From contig JACPUR010000033.1 in the NCBI GenBank assembly GCA_016192135.1, forward strand, positions 1-23,969: DNA of 23,969 bases, given 5' to 3'. This document shows positions 1,782-7,096 of this stretch, piece after piece. The DNA is from Candidatus Tectomicrobia bacterium. Lineage in GTDB: Bacteria > UBA8248. The translations under genes were made by a program, and so were the position numbers. How positions within the stretch are numbered: the first letter of the stretch is position 1; every line of letters begins with the position of its first letter. The notes under the pieces are model-generated. The model did not search any database, had not been told where the DNA came from, and saw only the letters and a program-made list of their open reading frames with translations.

Positions 1782-1802
1782 GGAACCCGGAGCGTCATAA
1801 GG
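1782..1802 (+). promoter_or_regulatory. Leader motif copy 1 (GGAACC-N5-CGTCATAAGG), upstream of the ECF sigma gene
   Basis: GGAACC (1782-1787), five bases, then CGTCATAAGG (1793-1802). Two further copies with N6 spacing and the decamer CGTCNTAAGG lie upstream of the SHOCT gene and the Met/His-rich Spy-like gene. GGAACC is the classic -35 of many ECF sigma factors, and CGTC is a common ECF -10 core. However, the 5-6 base gap is too short for those two roles together. Either GGAACC is the -35 with a -10 about 16 bases downstream, or the whole block is an operator. It ends 104 bases before the proposed sigma start, which would fit autoregulation. Confidence 0.5.
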
Positions 1803-1906
1803 GCAAAAGGGGCGGGCCCGGCGGACGGGCTCCCCACGGGCCCATCCGGAATTGCTATAGTACCGGGCGGTCGAACCCGGGACCTCCTACGGCCTTAGGG
1901 GATGGG

Positions 1907-2491
1907 TTGTTGAGTCCGCCGCCCGAGCCGCAAGACGACTCGGTCTGGGTCGCCCGGTGCAAAGCGGGGGACCCGGACGCCTTCGAGCCCCTGGTGCTCC
2001 GCCACGCGGGCAGGGTCCGGCGGCTGGTGTGGGGGCTGCTGGGGGAGCGGCGGGAGGAAGCCGAGGATGTGGTGCAGGAGGTATTCCTCAAGGCCTACTT
2101 GGCCCTGCCCCGCTTCCGGGAGGAGGCCCGCTTCTCGACCTGGCTCTACCGCATCGCGGTCAACCACGTCCGCGACATGGCCCGGCGCGCCCCGCCGGCC
2201 CACGTGGAGTTCGACGAGACGCGGCTGGAGGCCCCCGGGCCCCGGGGGGAGGAAGAAGACGCGGGAGCCGATGCCCCCCGTCCCGGCCGGAGCGAGGAGC
2301 TTCGCCGCCTGCTGGGCGAGCTCAGCGAGCCGCAGCGGAGAATCCTGGTGATGCGCGAGCTCGAGGGGCTCAGCTACGATGAGATCGGCGGGATCCTGCG
2401 GATCCCGCCCGGCACGGTCCGCTCCCGCCTCAACCGGGCGCGCGCGGGCCTGCTGAGGGCCGCCGCGAGACGGAAAGAAGGAGAAGCATGA
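1907..2491 (+). CDS. ECF-family RNA polymerase sigma factor
   Basis: This is a sigma-70 family extracytoplasmic-function factor of 194 residues, normal for the class, with only regions 2 and 4. Region 2 spans about residues 24-92, including EDVVQEVFLKAY (53-64, core polymerase contact) and FSTWLYRIAVNHVRD (76-90, -10 recognition). An acidic linker (110-128) follows. Region 4 spans about 130-185, with the helix-turn-helix SYDEIGGILRIPPGTVRSRL recognising the -35. The start is inferred: no in-frame ATG fits, but adjacent TTG codons at 1907 and 1910 follow AGGGG (1897-1901), and either is plausible. The stop overlaps the next start as ATGA, so the downstream putative anti-sigma factor is probably translationally coupled. 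A GGAACC/CGTCATAAGG motif upstream suggests autoregulation. The exact ECF group was not assigned. Confidence 0.92.
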   Translation: MLSPPPEPQDDSVWVARCKAGDPDAFEPLVLRHAGRVRRLVWGLLGERREEAEDVVQEVFLKAYLALPRFREEARFSTWLYRIAVNHVRDMARRAPPAHVEFDETRLEAPGPRGEEEDAGADAPRPGRSEELRRLLGELSEPQRRILVMRELEGLSYDEIGGILRIPPGTVRSRLNRARAGLLRAAARRKEGEA

Positions 2492-2913
2492 TGCTGCGTT
2501 GGCGCGAGTGGCGTGAGAGCCTGCGGCGGGCCCGCGAGTGGGATTCGGCCCCGGACCCGGAGATCCGGCGCCTGCAATCGCTCTTCGCCGCCGCCCGCCC
2601 CGGGGAGGACTCCCAGGCGGACGCGCGGCTGTGGCGCAGGCTCCGCGCCCGCATCCACGGGCTGGAGCGGGAGCGCGTGCCCGCGCTGAGCGGGGCGCTC
2701 GCCTCCTTCGGCTTCCGCTTCGCCGGAGCCGCGGCCCTCGCGCTCGTCCTCGCCGCCGGCCTGACCTGGCGGGACGGGCCCTTCGGTTCCCCGCAGGGCG
2801 CCCAGACGGCCTCCTTCCTCGAGACCCCCGACGAGGTCCTGAGCGGCCCGCTCCAGGCGAGGAGCGGGGACGATCTCCTCCAGTTCATCGCCTACAATGC
2901 GGCGGGCCGGTGA
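2488..2913 (+). CDS. Probable membrane-bound anti-sigma factor
   Basis: A 141-residue protein of no family I can name. Its N-terminal 70 residues are Arg/Glu-rich and cytosolic in character. One transmembrane helix follows at about 76-93 (FRFAGAAALALVLAAGL), then a short periplasmic tail of about 48 residues. It starts at the ATG at 2488 inside the sigma factor stop (ATGA overlap) after AAGGAG, and its end overlaps or abuts the sensor gene. This position and topology are typical of anti-sigma factors paired with ECF sigmas, such as the CnrY type. There is no HxxxCxxC zinc motif of the ZAS class. The role is inferred from position and topology, not from sequence similarity. Confidence 0.7.
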   Translation: MMLRWREWRESLRRAREWDSAPDPEIRRLQSLFAAARPGEDSQADARLWRRLRARIHGLERERVPALSGALASFGFRFAGAAALALVLAAGLTWRDGPFGSPQGAQTASFLETPDEVLSGPLQARSGDDLLQFIAYNAAGR

Positions 2914-2918
2914 AGGCC

Positions 2919-3401
2919 ATGCGCGACTCCTTCCGCAACCCGAAGGCGAAGGCGGCGGCGGTCCTCGTGGCCGTCTTCCTCCTGGGAGGCGGCACGGGCT
3001 ACTTCGCGGGCTACTGGCACGCGATGGGAGGCCCCGGCCAGGGCGGCTGGCGGGGCCGCGCCGCCGGCGCGCGCGGCGAGGACCGCACCGCGCACTTCCT
3101 CCGCAAGTTGGAGAGCGACCTCGGGCTCAGCGGCGCACAGAGCAAGCAGGCGGAGGATATCCTCCGCCGCCATCACCAGCGCTTCATCGAACTGCGGCGC
3201 GAGATGGCCCCCAAGATCGACGGCATCCTCAAGGAAGTCCGGGCCGACCTGCGCGCCATGCTGGGCCCCGGCCAGCGGGAGCACTTCGACCGGATGGTGC
3301 GCATGATGGAGGAGCACCGCCAGCGCCGGCGGGAGCGCTGGTGGCGGGGGATGGGCGGCATGATGCGCGAGTCCCCCGGCCCGCCCGGGGAATCGAGATA
3401 G
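2919..3401 (+). CDS. Periplasmic metal-sensor-like protein (CnrX/ZraP/Metal_resist type)
   Basis: A 160-residue protein with an N-terminal signal anchor (about 11-32) and a helical, charged periplasmic domain. LGLSGAQSKQAEDILRRHHQ (68-87) and MLGPGQREHFDRMV (114-127) are the two helix regions typical of the Metal_resist/CpxP superfamily, where paired helices form a hook that binds metal or misfolded protein. The His pair at 85/86 and the Met/Trp-rich end (WWRGMGGMM, 141-149) could bind metal. It is the third gene of a tightly packed sigma / anti-sigma / sensor unit, the same cast as CnrH-CnrY-CnrX. A GTG at 2910, overlapping the previous stop as GTGA, is an equally possible start and adds three residues. 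The ligand cannot be read from sequence. Confidence 0.75.
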   Translation: MRDSFRNPKAKAAAVLVAVFLLGGGTGYFAGYWHAMGGPGQGGWRGRAAGARGEDRTAHFLRKLESDLGLSGAQSKQAEDILRRHHQRFIELRREMAPKIDGILKEVRADLRAMLGPGQREHFDRMVRMMEEHRQRRRERWWRGMGGMMRESPGPPGESR

Positions 3402-3431
3402 CCTGTCTTTTCCCGGCAGACCATCCTTCGC

Positions 3432-3455
3432 AGGGGCGAGGCGTGCCTCGCCCCT
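3432..3455. repeat. REP-like inverted repeat, GGGGCGAGGC variant
   Basis: AGGGGCGAGGC (3432-3442) and GCCTCGCCCCT (3445-3455) are perfect 11-bp arms with a two-base loop, almost identical to the core of the palindrome at 767-794. It lies between the sensor gene and the next gene, so it may weaken read-through. Confidence 0.8.
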
Positions 3456-3484
3456 ATTCATTACGCCGCCGGAGGAAATGAGCG

Positions 3485-4030
3485 ATGCGCTTTCGGCCCG
3501 CGATGGCGCTCTTGCTCCCCCTCGTCTTCCTCGCCTCTCCCGCCTCGCATGCCGCCGAGTCGCCCTACAAAGGCCAGGAGAAGCGCCCCATCAAGGCCCT
3601 CTCCGGGAAGGAGGTCGAGGATCTCCTCGCCGGGAACGGCATGGGCTTGGCCAAGGCGGCCGAGCTGAACCGCTACCCGGGCCCCCTGCACGTGCTGGAG
3701 TCCACCTCCCGGCTGGGGCTGACGGAGACCCAGCGGGCCGAAACCCGGCGCCTGTTCGACGCCATGAAGCGCGAGGCGGTGCCGCTCGGGAGGGAGATCG
3801 TGGAGCGGGAGCGCGAGCTCGACGCCCGCTTCGCCTCCCAGGAGATCGACGAGGCCTCCCTCGCCGCCGCCCTGGCCGAGATCGGGCGGCTCACGGGGGC
3901 TCTCCGCCTCGTCCACCTCAAGGCCCACCTCCGGATGCGGGAGATCCTGACCCCCCATCAGATCGCCCTCTACGGCCGGGCGCGGGGATATGAATCCTCC
4001 GGCGGCGCGGGCGGGCATTCGGGACATTAG
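3485..4030 (+). CDS. CpxP/Spy-related periplasmic protein with two LTxxQ motifs
   Basis: A 181-residue secreted protein. The signal peptide is at residues 1-24 (hydrophobic MALLLPLVFLASPA, then SHAAE). GNGMGLAKAAELNRYPGPLH (50-69) is a conserved-looking segment, and the helical core carries LTETQ (79-83) and LTPHQ (155-159), the signature repeats of the LTXXQ/CpxP-Spy family of periplasmic chaperones and stress sensors. The tail is short and Gly/His-rich. The start at 3485 is set by GGAGGA eight bases upstream. It follows the sensor gene by 83 bases, with a palindrome between, so it may belong to the sigma operon or be transcribed separately. The role is probably envelope protein protection or metal buffering; the ligand is unknown. 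Confidence 0.75.
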   Translation: MRFRPAMALLLPLVFLASPASHAAESPYKGQEKRPIKALSGKEVEDLLAGNGMGLAKAAELNRYPGPLHVLESTSRLGLTETQRAETRRLFDAMKREAVPLGREIVERERELDARFASQEIDEASLAAALAEIGRLTGALRLVHLKAHLRMREILTPHQIALYGRARGYESSGGAGGHSGH

Positions 4031-4188
4031 CCGCCACCGGCCGGGCGTATTGCGATCCGTCCCCAGCGAACTCGCGGGCGCTGGCCGCCCAGGGGTTCCC
4101 TGCGTTTTTACTGAGGCGGGCAGAGAACCCGCCCCTATGCCCCCTCCAGTTCACACGTCGCCTTTCAATCCTCCGTCCATGCATTCGT

Positions 4189-4212
4189 AGGGGCGTATTG
4201 CAATACGCCCCT
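4189..4212. repeat. REP-like perfect palindrome, GGGGCGTATTG variant
   Basis: AGGGGCGTATTG (4189-4200) followed by CAATACGCCCCT (4201-4212) is a perfect 24-bp palindrome preceded by GT. It has the same GTAGGGGCG outer arm as the other copies with a different inner arm. A degenerate relative lies about 140 bases upstream. Confidence 0.8.
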
Positions 4213-4286
4213 GCTCCTCCACCCCCAATCGAATTTCCCGAAAAAATTCCCTTTCTTATTTGCGATTCCGGACCCGCGTCATTCCC

Positions 4287-4308
4287 GGAACCCCGCCCCG
4301 TCCTAAGG
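4287..4308 (+). promoter_or_regulatory. Leader motif copy 2 (GGAACC-N6-CGTCCTAAGG), upstream of the SHOCT gene
   Basis: GGAACC (4287-4292), six bases, then CGTCCTAAGG (4299-4308). Aligned by eye with copy 3, the similarity runs beyond the motif: about 34 of 41 positions match from CGGAACCC through to GATGC. The motif ends 63 bases before the SHOCT start. TCATAA, 16 bases after GGAACC, is a possible -10. Confidence 0.55.
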
Positions 4309-4371
4309 TCATAAGCGGGAGATGCATGGATGGCCCGCCAAATGACCGCCTTTCCGGAAGGAGCCGTCCCA

Positions 4372-4695
4372 ATGAAGCGTCCGGTGGCCTTGAGCGTTCT
4401 CGGCAGCGTCCTTCTCTCTCCCTTTCCCGCCCTCGCCCAGCCCTGGGGATCGTATGCCGGCCCCCGCATGATGTGGGACTACGGCTGGCACGGCTGGTTC
4501 CTGGGGCCCTTCGCCATGATCCTCTTCTGGGGGCTGGCCATCGCCGCCATCGTCCTCGTGGTCCGCTGGTTCAGCCCCTCGGGCCATGGCCCCCAGGCCG
4601 CCAGGACTCATCTTGACATTCTCCGGGAGCGCTTCGCGCGGGGCGAGATCGGCAAGGACGAGTTCGAGGAGCGCAGGCGCGTTCTGGGCGACTAG
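4372..4695 (+). CDS. SHOCT-domain membrane protein
   Basis: A 107-residue protein with three parts. The signal peptide is at 1-22, ending ALAQ. A Trp/Tyr/His-rich stretch (24-42: WGSYAGPRMMWDYGWHGW) leads into one transmembrane helix (about 43-67). The C-terminal SHOCT domain (80-106: LDILRERFARGEIGKDEFEE, then RRRVL) is a short two-helix module often attached to membrane or transport-linked proteins and of no fixed function. The start at 4372 has AAGGAG eight bases upstream; an upstream ATG at 4330 lacks one. Small SHOCT proteins of this type are frequent beside copper and other heavy-metal genes, which agrees with the Met/His-rich neighbour. It has its own leader motif, so it is probably co-regulated with the Spy-like gene. 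Confidence 0.82.
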   Translation: MKRPVALSVLGSVLLSPFPALAQPWGSYAGPRMMWDYGWHGWFLGPFAMILFWGLAIAAIVLVVRWFSPSGHGPQAARTHLDILRERFARGEIGKDEFEERRRVLGD

Positions 4696-4703
4696 TCCGC
4701 CTC

Positions 4704-4725
4704 GGAACCCGCGCCCGTCTTAAGG
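4704..4725 (+). promoter_or_regulatory. Leader motif copy 3 (GGAACC-N6-CGTCTTAAGG), upstream of the Met/His-rich Spy-like gene
   Basis: GGAACC (4704-4709), six bases, then CGTCTTAAGG (4716-4725), directly after the SHOCT stop and 95 bases before the next start. The surrounding leader resembles that of the SHOCT gene, including a GACCGCCTT segment shortly before each ribosome site, as if the leader had been duplicated with an extra ~30-base insert here. Confidence 0.55.
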
Positions 4726-4820
4726 TGCATGAGCGAGGGATGCCCCGGAGGCCCCTCGGTGAACCGCAACGCCGGCCCCGGCCACCGGGTTGCAAAGACC
4801 GCCTTGAAAAGGGAGGCAAC

Positions 4821-5462
4821 ATGACCAGGAAGCGGATCGCCATCATCATCGCCGCCGCCGCGCTGACCGTGGGCGCGGGCCTGGCGGCCAACGAGTACGC
4901 GTCGGCGCAGGGCTGGGGAGGCGGGCCGGGCTTTCACCGCGGCGGCCCCACGATGCGGGGCCACATGATGGGCGGCATGATGGGCGGCCATATGATGAGC
5001 GGCCCGATCATCTCCCGCGCCCTCGCGATGAAGGACGAGCTCAAGCTCACCGCGGACCAGGTGAAGAAGCTCGAGCAGCTCCGCGACGGCTTCTACCAGA
5101 AGGCCGCGAGGGAGCGCATCGAGATGCAGTCCACCGGCCTCGAGCTCCAGAAGCTCCACCTCGCCGACAAGCTGGACGTGGCCGCGGCGGAGAGGCTCAT
5201 CCGCGCCATGGAGAAGAAACGCGCCGACATGCGCATCGAGCGCCTGAAGACGATCGAGCAGGGCAAGGCGATCCTGACCTCCGAGCAGCTCAAGCAGCTC
5301 CAGGCGGCCAGCTTCGGCCCGGGCGCCCGCATGGGGCGCGGCGGCTCCGGTCCCGGCCAGGGCTTCGGTCCGGGGCGGGGCGCGGGGATGATGGGGCCCG
5401 GGTTCGGCCCCGGTCCCGCATGGGAGGACGCCCAGCTGCCCGGCGGCGGATCGCTGGAATAA
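4821..5462 (+). CDS. Met/His-rich Spy/CpxP-family periplasmic protein
   Basis: A 213-residue secreted protein. The signal peptide is at about 1-29 (IIIAAAALTVGAGLA, cleavage near ASAQ). A Met/His/Gly-rich segment at 37-59 contains HRGGPTMRGHMM and two GGMM/GGHMM repeats. The LTXXQ helical core spans about 65-165, with LTADQ (76-80) and LTSEQ (152-156). The Gly/Pro-rich tail (165-210) has further Met residues. The family includes Spy (ATP-independent periplasmic chaperone), CpxP and ZraP. The Met/His segment resembles copper-binding patches, but the metal is inference. The start is the ATG at 4821 with GGGAGG four bases before it. The leader motif upstream is shared with the SHOCT and sigma genes. 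A hairpin at 5482-5509 probably ends the transcript. Confidence 0.85.
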   Translation: MTRKRIAIIIAAAALTVGAGLAANEYASAQGWGGGPGFHRGGPTMRGHMMGGMMGGHMMSGPIISRALAMKDELKLTADQVKKLEQLRDGFYQKAARERIEMQSTGLELQKLHLADKLDVAAAERLIRAMEKKRADMRIERLKTIEQGKAILTSEQLKQLQAASFGPGARMGRGGSGPGQGFGPGRGAGMMGPGFGPGPAWEDAQLPGGGSLE

Positions 5463-5572: not shown

Positions 5573-5770
5573 GTGATTTTCGACGGATTCCGCGAGCTGA
5601 TGGACGCTTCGGTCGCCCTCGTCCTGCTGCTCGATCTGGTATTCTTCTCCTACCTCGCGTTCCGGCTGACCCGGGAGCGAGAGCTGTTCGGCCCGGCGCG
5701 GAACGGCCTCCTGCCCGCGCCAAAGCCCGTCCGGGCGGATCGCCCGGAGTGGCGGAGGGACATGCAATGA
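5573..5770 (+). CDS. Small single-pass membrane protein, unknown
   Basis: A 65-residue protein of no recognised family. It starts at the GTG at 5573 with AGGAAGG seven bases upstream. After a short amphipathic start (MIFDGFRELMDA) there is one strong transmembrane helix (about 13-32: VALVLLLDLVFFSYLAF), then a basic tail (RLTRERELFGPARNG onward), suggesting an N-out, C-in small membrane protein. Its stop overlaps the next start as ATGA, which indicates translational coupling with the DUF6515-like gene. The good ribosome site, the overlap and the helix support a real gene, but the function is unknown. Confidence 0.6.
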   Translation: MIFDGFRELMDASVALVLLLDLVFFSYLAFRLTRERELFGPARNGLLPAPKPVRADRPEWRRDMQ

Positions 5771-6309
5771 ATCGCCGTGATGCCCGCAAGTGGTTCCTGA
5801 CCGCAGTGCTCGCCGCCCTCCTGATCCCGGCCGCCGCCTCCATCCCGGCGCGGGCCGAGGCCCGTCCCCGCCACGGGACGGCGGTGGTGGTGCTGCCCCC
5901 GGGGCACCGCCCGGTGGTGGTCCGCCAGGTGACCTACTACTACCACAACGGCGCCTATTACCGCCGCGCGCCCCGCGGCTATGTCGTCGTCCCGGCGCCT
6001 TACGGCGCGGTCGTGCCGGTGATCCCCCCGAGCCATCGCACCGTGATCGTGAGGGGCGCCACCTACTACGTGGACGACGAGGTGTACTACCGCCGGGTGC
6101 TGGTCTCGGGCCAGCCCCAGTACGAGGTGGCGCAGTACCCGGTGCAGCCCGAGGTACGCCCGCCCGCGCCCGTCCAGCCGCCCGTCCAGGGGGCGCCCTA
6201 TTGCCGCGAGGCCCTGATCCCCATCTTCGTGGCGGGCAAGGAGGAGCGCGCCGTCACCACCGCCTGCCGCGAGCCGGACGGCACCTGGCGGCTTCAGCCC
6301 GGGCGGTAG
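5767..6309 (+). CDS. DUF6515-like exported protein with a surface-antigen-type tail
   Basis: A 180-residue secreted protein. The signal peptide is at about 1-31 (WFLTAVLAALLIPAAAS, then ARAEA). The middle is a Tyr/Val/Pro repeat region: PPGHRPVVV, VTYYYHNGAYYRRAPRGYVV (55-74), IPPSHRTVIVRGATYYVDDE and VYYRR (87-110). This is the PPG/YYY pattern of DUF6515 proteins. A Pro/Gln linker follows (116-143). The end, from Cys146 (CREALIPIFVAGKEERAVTT) to Cys167 (ACREPDGTWRL), resembles the C-R-E...A-C-R-x-P-D-G-x-W tail of 17 kDa surface-antigen-type proteins. The start at 5767 overlaps the upstream stop and has GGAGGG seven bases before it. It is probably periplasmic or surface-exposed; its role is unknown. 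Confidence 0.75.
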   Translation: MNRRDARKWFLTAVLAALLIPAAASIPARAEARPRHGTAVVVLPPGHRPVVVRQVTYYYHNGAYYRRAPRGYVVVPAPYGAVVPVIPPSHRTVIVRGATYYVDDEVYYRRVLVSGQPQYEVAQYPVQPEVRPPAPVQPPVQGAPYCREALIPIFVAGKEERAVTTACREPDGTWRLQPGR

Positions 6310-6506: not shown

Positions 6507-6974
6507 TCAAGGAGCGGGCGCTCCTGCGACCGGTCCGCGAGGTGCCGGAGGTCCGGCCGGTCCGCGCGGTCCGGCTGGCCCGCGCTCACCCCGCGGTCCC
6601 TGGGGTCCCCGCGCTCCCTGGGCCCCTCGATCTCCCTTCATTCCCCGCTCTCCCCGCATTCCCTGGGGCCCCCGAGGCCCCGGCCGCGACTGGCTGCTCG
6701 CGATTCTGCTCTGAAGAGCGCTCATCTGCTGGCTGAGGGCGCTCATCCGCTGCTGCTGATTGTTGATCTGCTGCTGGTGAGCGTTGATCTGCTGGCGCTG
6801 AGCGTTGATCTGCTGGGTGGCGGCGCGAAGTTGGTTCTGAAGCGCAGCCACTTGGGCCTGAAGCTGGGCCAACGCGTTGGCCCCTTGCGACTCGGCGCTC
6901 CTCGGCGTCCAGAAGGTCAGCGACGCTCCCAAGAGCAGAAGAAAAATCCCCGCACCGACGGATTTCCAACGCAT
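6507..6974 (-). CDS. Membrane-anchored coiled-coil and collagen-like protein
   Basis: A 155-residue protein in three parts. An N-terminal hydrophobic segment (7-22: GAGIFLLLLGASLTFW) acts as signal peptide or anchor. A Gln-rich coiled coil (about 33-92) follows, with near-perfect heptads QQINAQR, QQINAHQ and QQINNQQ (54-74), then in-register Met77 and Met84. Fifteen uninterrupted collagen G-x-y triplets follow (Gly99 to Gly141), rich in GERG, GDRG and GPRG, with a short Pro/Ala tail. Bacterial collagen-like proteins trimerise and usually stand on the cell surface; the preceding coiled coil would nucleate the triple helix. The ATG at 6974 has AGAGG and GAGGGA upstream; an ATG at 7022 is less likely. 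A CRP-type palindrome lies about 125 bases upstream. Partner and role are unknown. Confidence 0.82.
   Translation of the reverse strand: MRWKSVGAGIFLLLLGASLTFWTPRSAESQGANALAQLQAQVAALQNQLRAATQQINAQRQQINAHQQQINNQQQRMSALSQQMSALQSRIASSQSRPGPRGPQGMRGERGMKGDRGAQGARGPQGPRGERGPAGPRGPAGPPAPRGPVAGAPAP
6763..6825. repeat. 21-bp in-gene tandem repeat encoding coiled-coil heptads
   Basis: TTGATCTGCTG recurs at 6763, 6784 and 6805, exactly 21 bases apart, and encodes the QQIN heptads of the collagen-like protein. Slippage here would add or remove whole heptads without a frameshift. Confidence 0.7.
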
Positions 6975-7096
6975 GCCTCTTCCCTCCCCCCCAAGCGCAA
7001 AATGAACGAACGGAGAATACATTAATGAAAAAAATACCCCACAATCCGAAAGAACGCTCTCATCCAGAGAAATAGGAGCCAGGAAAAGTTCGAGCG

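Follow-up and report, generated by a model that had tools for sequence, protein, structure and literature searches.

A predicted sigma-E-like envelope-stress regulon of Candidatus Tectomicrobia with unusually closely spaced promoter words

Which promoters are used by a bacterial sigma factor whose own leader carries both words of a sigma-E promoter, placed about one helical turn too close to each other? The question is raised by a locus in a 23,969-nucleotide stretch of DNA from a Candidatus Tectomicrobia bacterium (contig JACPUR010000033.1 of assembly GCA_016192135.1, positions 1 to 23,969), hereafter the window. An extracytoplasmic function (ECF) sigma gene overlaps there the open reading frame (ORF) of an anti-sigma candidate, next to the ORF of a putative sensor, and three leaders of the block carry a bipartite motif, GGAACC and CGTC separated by 5 or 6 bp (N5 or N6). 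Based on the comparisons described below we consider it probable that this cassette controls an RpoE-like envelope-stress regulon using GGAACC-N5/6-CGTC-N-W-A promoters. Its parts in the window are:

1782–1802, + strand: compressed motif, putative promoter, N5, in the sigma leader, GGAACC-CGGAG-CGTCATAAGG
1910–2491, + strand: ECF sigma factor gene, RpoE/AlgU-like, 193 residues, start TTG at 1907 or 1910
2488–2913, + strand: putative anti-sigma gene, 141 residues, one predicted transmembrane segment, conserved C-terminal tail reading SGDDLLQFIAY in the window protein
2910–3401, + strand: putative sensor, a membrane-anchored periplasmic helical protein weakly related to the CpxP/CnrX/Spy superfamily
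3485–4030, + strand: CpxP/ZraP-like periplasmic protein (Metal_resist, 5.8e-12)
4287–4308, + strand: compressed motif, putative promoter, N6, before the SHOCT gene
4372–4695, + strand: SHOCT-domain membrane protein (SHOCT, 6.1e-8); the ORF opens at 4330, and ATG 4372 has a Shine-Dalgarno sequence
4704–4725, + strand: compressed motif, putative promoter, N6, before the Spy-like gene
4821–5462, + strand: Spy/LTXXQ-like Met-rich periplasmic protein (LTXXQ, 2.5e-8)

The assembly comprises 3,923,448 bases in 41 contigs and is 96.8% complete. A search of it for the full motif, GGAACCN{4,7}CGTCNTAAGG, gave three matches and no more, every one in the window, where 0.00 were expected; the reversed control gave 0. 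With two mismatches tolerated the N5 form was found at just two further places in the genome. A first-pass annotation, made from the sequence of the window alone, had ascribed the motif to three leaders including that of the sigma gene, and both the copies and the genes were located where it had put them. It had also named frequent occurrence of the motif at random genomic positions as an argument against its own proposal, and the full motif turned out to be unique to the locus. The three copies thus stood, while the TAAGG tail included in the annotated motif is conserved only in some members of g1 and g2.

Conservation was estimated in 18 genomes of one family (Candidatus Tectomicrobia), 17 of them besides the window genome. 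A close orthologue of the sigma factor was registered in 15 of these 17, leaving out a weak match in G012, an exceptional genome whose top sigma match reaches just 35% identity and which lacks the core motif altogether. The anti-sigma candidate has 14 orthologues in other genomes, adjoining the sigma gene. The closest named contig, MGDP01000205 from Candidatus Tectomicrobia bacterium RIFCSPLOWO2_12_FULL_69_37 (L013), encodes a sigma 81% identical. Most sufficiently long contigs of genera g1, g2, g4 and g6 preserve the gene order sigma, anti-sigma, sensor, (CpxP-like), Spy, dapB lying divergently upstream; the CpxP/ZraP-like gene is conserved in g1 and g6. The family-wide core of the motif is GGAACC-N5/6-CGTC, usually followed by N-W-A. 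It is present in 15 of 15 readable sigma leaders from four genera, as N5 in the window and as N6 in 14 relatives, and is the sole conserved block of these leaders, pairwise identity in six representative genomes being 63–67% in motif blocks versus 19–31% elsewhere. One scan of contigs for similar sigmas outside the phylum retained, besides one Tectomicrobia contig, matches that were 35–45% identical.

The core GGAACCN{5,6}CGTCNWA has about 106 matches in the 18 genomes versus about 31 for the reversed pattern. For 60 core-motif sites outside the locus the downstream genes were read and named by Pfam; “similar” marks an ORF alike by eye and unscanned:

HtrA-type protease: G010, G011
LolA: G016; similar in G017
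LpoB: G011
OEP/TolC: G016; similar in G017
HlyD_D23 RND adaptors: G000, G003, G010, G017; similar in G001, G007, G008
Glycine-zipper 17-kDa lipoproteins: G000, G003, G010, G015, G016; similar in G017
Hsp20: G000; similar in G001, G002
Bax1-I: G015; similar in G016
LTXXQ: G010
SHOCT, with N5: G015; similar in G017
Multicopper oxidase: G003
ARPP-1: G003; similar in five more g2 genomes
ABC transporter: G016; similar in G017
5'-nucleotidase: G001

Orthologues of spy in G001, G015, G016 and G017 have the motif upstream as well. The target set is coherent, and the motif-bearing genes are, by their predicted products, a sigma-E-like envelope-stress regulon. Since many envelope genes that are not linked to the locus, HtrA, LolA and LpoB among them, have the core motif upstream, the cassette is not the self-contained system for which it had been taken. 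The earlier proposal that the sigma controls itself, the SHOCT gene and the Spy-like gene agrees with the motif being sigma-linked and present in sigma leaders and before SHOCT and Spy genes of other genera, while its metal-sensing part found no such agreement. Upstream of the Bax1-I-like gene of L217 (G016:C206) the motif stands in tandem twice with a 22-bp unit, GGAACCCGGCCCGTCTTATAAG GGAACCCGGCCCGTCTTATAAA. In L213 (G015:C62) and L220 (G017:C19) the core motif occupies a matching place within the apparent 3' half of tilS, as read by eye.

The half-sites are sigma-E words, and CGTC follows GGAACC after only 5–6 bp, a point on which the first-pass annotation made no remark. Known ECF promoters have about 16–17 bp separating -35 from -10; counted from GGAAC the distance here is 6–7 bp, and the spacer is about 9–10 bp, or one helical turn, shorter than the canonical one. 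The Oxalobacteraceae relatives L064 and L069 have GGAACTTTT, with CGTC 16 bp after GGAAC; CGTC starts 21 bp from the first G there versus 11–12 bp from the first G of GGAACC here. Because N5 and N6 might reflect the choice of pattern, GGAACC-N0..30-CGTCTAA was scanned across the phylum, and 20 of 29 pairs were found at N5 (11) or N6 (9), the other nine being N2, N9, N12, N12, N15, N15, N18, N19 and N19. With CGTCMAA about 30 of 115 pairs fell at N5/N6 versus about 3 per other spacing. The spacings of both scans were counted by hand and the totals were no higher than in the reversed control, the signal being the concentration at two spacings. For one and the same gene (spy, SHOCT) the spacer alternates between N5 and N6 in different genomes, as a -35/-10 spacer would. 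Twelve proteobacterial genomes that encode RpoE-like sigmas lacked the N5/N6 peak, two of their sigma leaders having GGAAC-N16-CGTC, and the idea that the compressed motif is common to RpoE-like relatives in general was rejected. A sigma-54 promoter (GG-N10-GC at -24/-12) was rejected as well, because the motif offers GG-N9/10-CG, with spacing that varies and without a fixed GC. Sigma-E words set about one helical turn too close are not explained by standard models of promoter reading. A search of open-licence papers found no ECF promoter with a 5–6 bp spacer; the SigAb ECF promoter has a 17-bp spacer, of which shortening to 16 bp had little impact and extension to 18 bp caused about threefold loss (PMC12153292).

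Aligned on CGTC, 49 non-redundant sites, hand-chosen from pattern matches, have a purine peak at +13 (84%, p=7e-6 uncorrected for positions tried), purines extending to about +18; the peak is weaker upon alignment on GGAACC. As this is the position expected for a CGTCTAA -10 element, it is a likely start site. Likely start codons lie mostly 54–150 nt downstream of CGTC. No conserved elements were found at a fixed distance upstream or downstream of the motif, and neither a canonically placed second -10 nor a -35 upstream of GGAACC is conserved, so that both were rejected. The purine peak, the absence of extra elements, the start-codon distances and the N5/N6 switching favor, as far as can be judged from sequence, a promoter over an activator site.

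The sigma factor belongs to the ECF (group IV) sigma-70 family (Sigma70_r2 2e-17, Sigma70_r4_2 1.2e-17, NCBIfam sigma70-ECF above cut-off). It is RpoE-like rather than RpoE, since it scores 111 bits with the RpoE equivalog TIGR02939, whose cut-off is 236. Its best PDB matches are 6in7 (sigma-H = AlgU, 138 bits), 8z6g and E. coli sigma-E 1or7 (130 bits), while CnrH (4cxf) gives only 72 bits, which does not place it among CnrH-type sigmas. Region 4 of RpoE reads “GTVRSRIFRAR”, and the resembling “GTVRSRLNRAR” is kept here. The 141-residue protein has no Pfam match and no recognisable RseA domains, and its match to NCBIfam antisigma NF052375 (E 0.0037) is below cut-off; its position, single hydrophobic helix and conserved C-terminal tail make it a putative anti-sigma. 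The window sensor matches Metal_resist below cut-off (E 0.087), 8 of 14 sensor orthologues do so at E<=0.1 (best 6e-4), and hhalign with the Spy set gave 84%. Within the one superfamily suggested for the sensor, CpxP-like and Spy-like proteins, the membership of the sensor is weak. Among the 14 sensor orthologues His or Cys occupies no invariant or near-invariant column, and one Met (M99) is near-invariant. AlphaFold models of the sensor and the anti-sigma candidate are of low confidence; Foldseek with the sensor model returned no significant match, which, the model being poor, is evidence neither way on a CnrX-like fold.

One can assume that the membrane anti-sigma would hold the ECF sigma until the membrane-anchored CpxP/Spy-type protein, perhaps along with the two secreted proteins, CpxP-like and Spy-like, senses periplasmic misfolding and releases it. 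The freed sigma would then recognise the motif and transcribe the operon that encodes it as well as envelope genes elsewhere, with a start about 13 nt past the C of CGTC. The -10 element would be CGTC(Y)AA, and GGAACC, the “-35” word of sigma-E, would lie near -25 instead of -35, where it may be contacted by sigma4 off its usual place, by a sigma2-adjacent spacer contact or by a second protein. That the ECF holoenzyme itself reads sigma-E -35 and -10 words minus one helical turn, with sigma2 and sigma4 (or an equivalent) touching DNA in a geometry that has no counterpart among known sigma-70-family promoter complexes, is put forward tentatively.

Several observations weigh against this scheme. 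A spacer of 5–6 bp is hard to fit to known complexes, given the usual distance between the words. Genome G010 has motif sites, while neither the sigma orthologue nor dapB was found in it; since dapB is the usual neighbor, the assembly probably has a gap here. Some core-motif sites, G000:C35 and C4 among them, fall within coding regions, probably by chance, and the hand-chosen set behind the purine profile excluded seven to ten coding-looking sites. Finally, TATAAT is present about 30 nt downstream of the motif in a few targets (L170, L175), which is compatible with an activator site.

The alternative closest to this scheme, and compatible with it, differs only over how GGAACC is read: CGTC(Y)AA alone would be the promoter and GGAACC a spacer element, read by the segment following sigma2 or by core polymerase, with no true -35. 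A conserved ECF spacer element has been described, as have promoters without -35 for phage ECF-like sigmas (PMC5333181). The present motif resembles them in having one more conserved sequence where the spacer between -35 and -10 would normally lie, and no -35 word is conserved 9–10 bp upstream of GGAACC here. In our case, however, this sequence is the very word read by sigma4 of RpoE, and region 4 is kept, which makes the alternative rather unlikely.

Alternatively, the motif could be a site for an activator (CpxR-like or another factor) upstream of sigma-70 promoters, resembling sigma-E words by chance, and the sigma gene merely one target among others. The distance of 11–12 bp between half-site starts in a bipartite site is typical of response regulators, E. 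coli Cpx targets include DegP, Spy, CpxP and YccA, and besides the TATAAT mentioned above an extended -10 lies downstream in the g1/g2 sigma leaders. However, no conserved element follows the motif at a fixed distance, downstream -10-like scores barely exceed those of shuffles (mean 3.9 versus 3.3; above threshold 18% versus 12%), and in L214 the likely start codon is only 54 nt after CGTC, leaving little room for a separate promoter. The half-sites are not repeats of each other and match, in order, the -35 and -10 words of the relatives of this sigma, and there is no regulator of CpxR-like kind at the locus. We regard an activator site as improbable. A metal-sensing system of CnrYXH type, the analogy drawn in the first-pass annotation, has matching parts (ECF sigma, membrane anti-sigma, periplasmic helical protein) and possible targets such as the multicopper oxidase and RND adaptors, but it deserves little credit, as the sigma is AlgU/RpoE-like (137 bits versus 72 for CnrH), the sensors conserve no His/Cys and one near-invariant Met, the low-confidence sensor model has no structural match and the targets are mainly envelope protein-quality and lipoprotein genes.

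The preferred scheme of an RpoE-like regulon has its nearest counterpart in RpoE-RseA-RseB and AlgU-MucA-MucB, with which it shares a sigma closest to AlgU/RpoE, a co-encoded membrane protein in the anti-sigma position, an autoregulation motif, HtrA/LolA targets and the half-sites GGAAC and CGTCTAA. It differs in that RseA domains are not recognisable in the anti-sigma, RseB was not found in the cassette, where a small helical CpxP/Spy-like protein replaces it, and the spacer is 9–10 bp shorter. CnrYXH of Cupriavidus metallidurans likewise unites a sigma, a membrane anti-sigma and a membrane-anchored periplasmic helical protein in one operon, whereas the sigma here is distant from CnrH, the gene order is other, a conserved set of metal ligands is lacking and the regulon is one of general envelope function. 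With the Cpx system (CpxP, Spy, DegP, YccA) the kinds of targets overlap and the cassette has CpxP/Spy-like proteins, yet it contains a sigma factor and no two-component system.

Two further elements were read in the sequence of the sigma leader:

1853–1861, + strand: extended -10, TGCTATAGT
1872–1892, + strand: possible decayed second copy of the motif, cGAACCCGGgaCcTCcTAcGG

The former has counterparts in G001 (TGGTATAGT) and G002 (TGCTATATT) and is likely a housekeeping promoter for basal sigma expression. An Rfam search of the window gave no matches to RNA families. Perfect REP-like (repetitive extragenic palindrome) palindromes lie at 4189–4212 and 3432–3455, AGGGGCGTATTG/CAATACGCCCCT and AGGGGCGAGGC-N2-GCCTCGCCCCT, in a region whose short stretches match L013 in scrambled order. 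On the 3' side of the cassette, directly after a 65-residue ORF, 5767–6309 (+ strand) encodes a secreted Tyr-rich DUF6515 protein. The product of 6507–7022 (- strand) combines a coiled coil with a collagen-like Gly-X-Y tail (Collagen 3.2e-9).

The distance from -35 to -10 is considered to be fixed by holoenzyme architecture. A family-wide regulon with these words about 10 bp too close, if true, would mean that this constraint can be broken or that an upstream element is read in a new mode, and searches for ECF promoters assuming a spacer near 16 bp would miss such regulons. Spacing is the directly testable part of the finding and the one surprising to a specialist. By the sequence comparisons made here the sigma-E-like regulon of Tectomicrobia is real, conserved and unusually spaced, and its predicted targets provide a first map of the envelope-stress response in this uncultured phylum.

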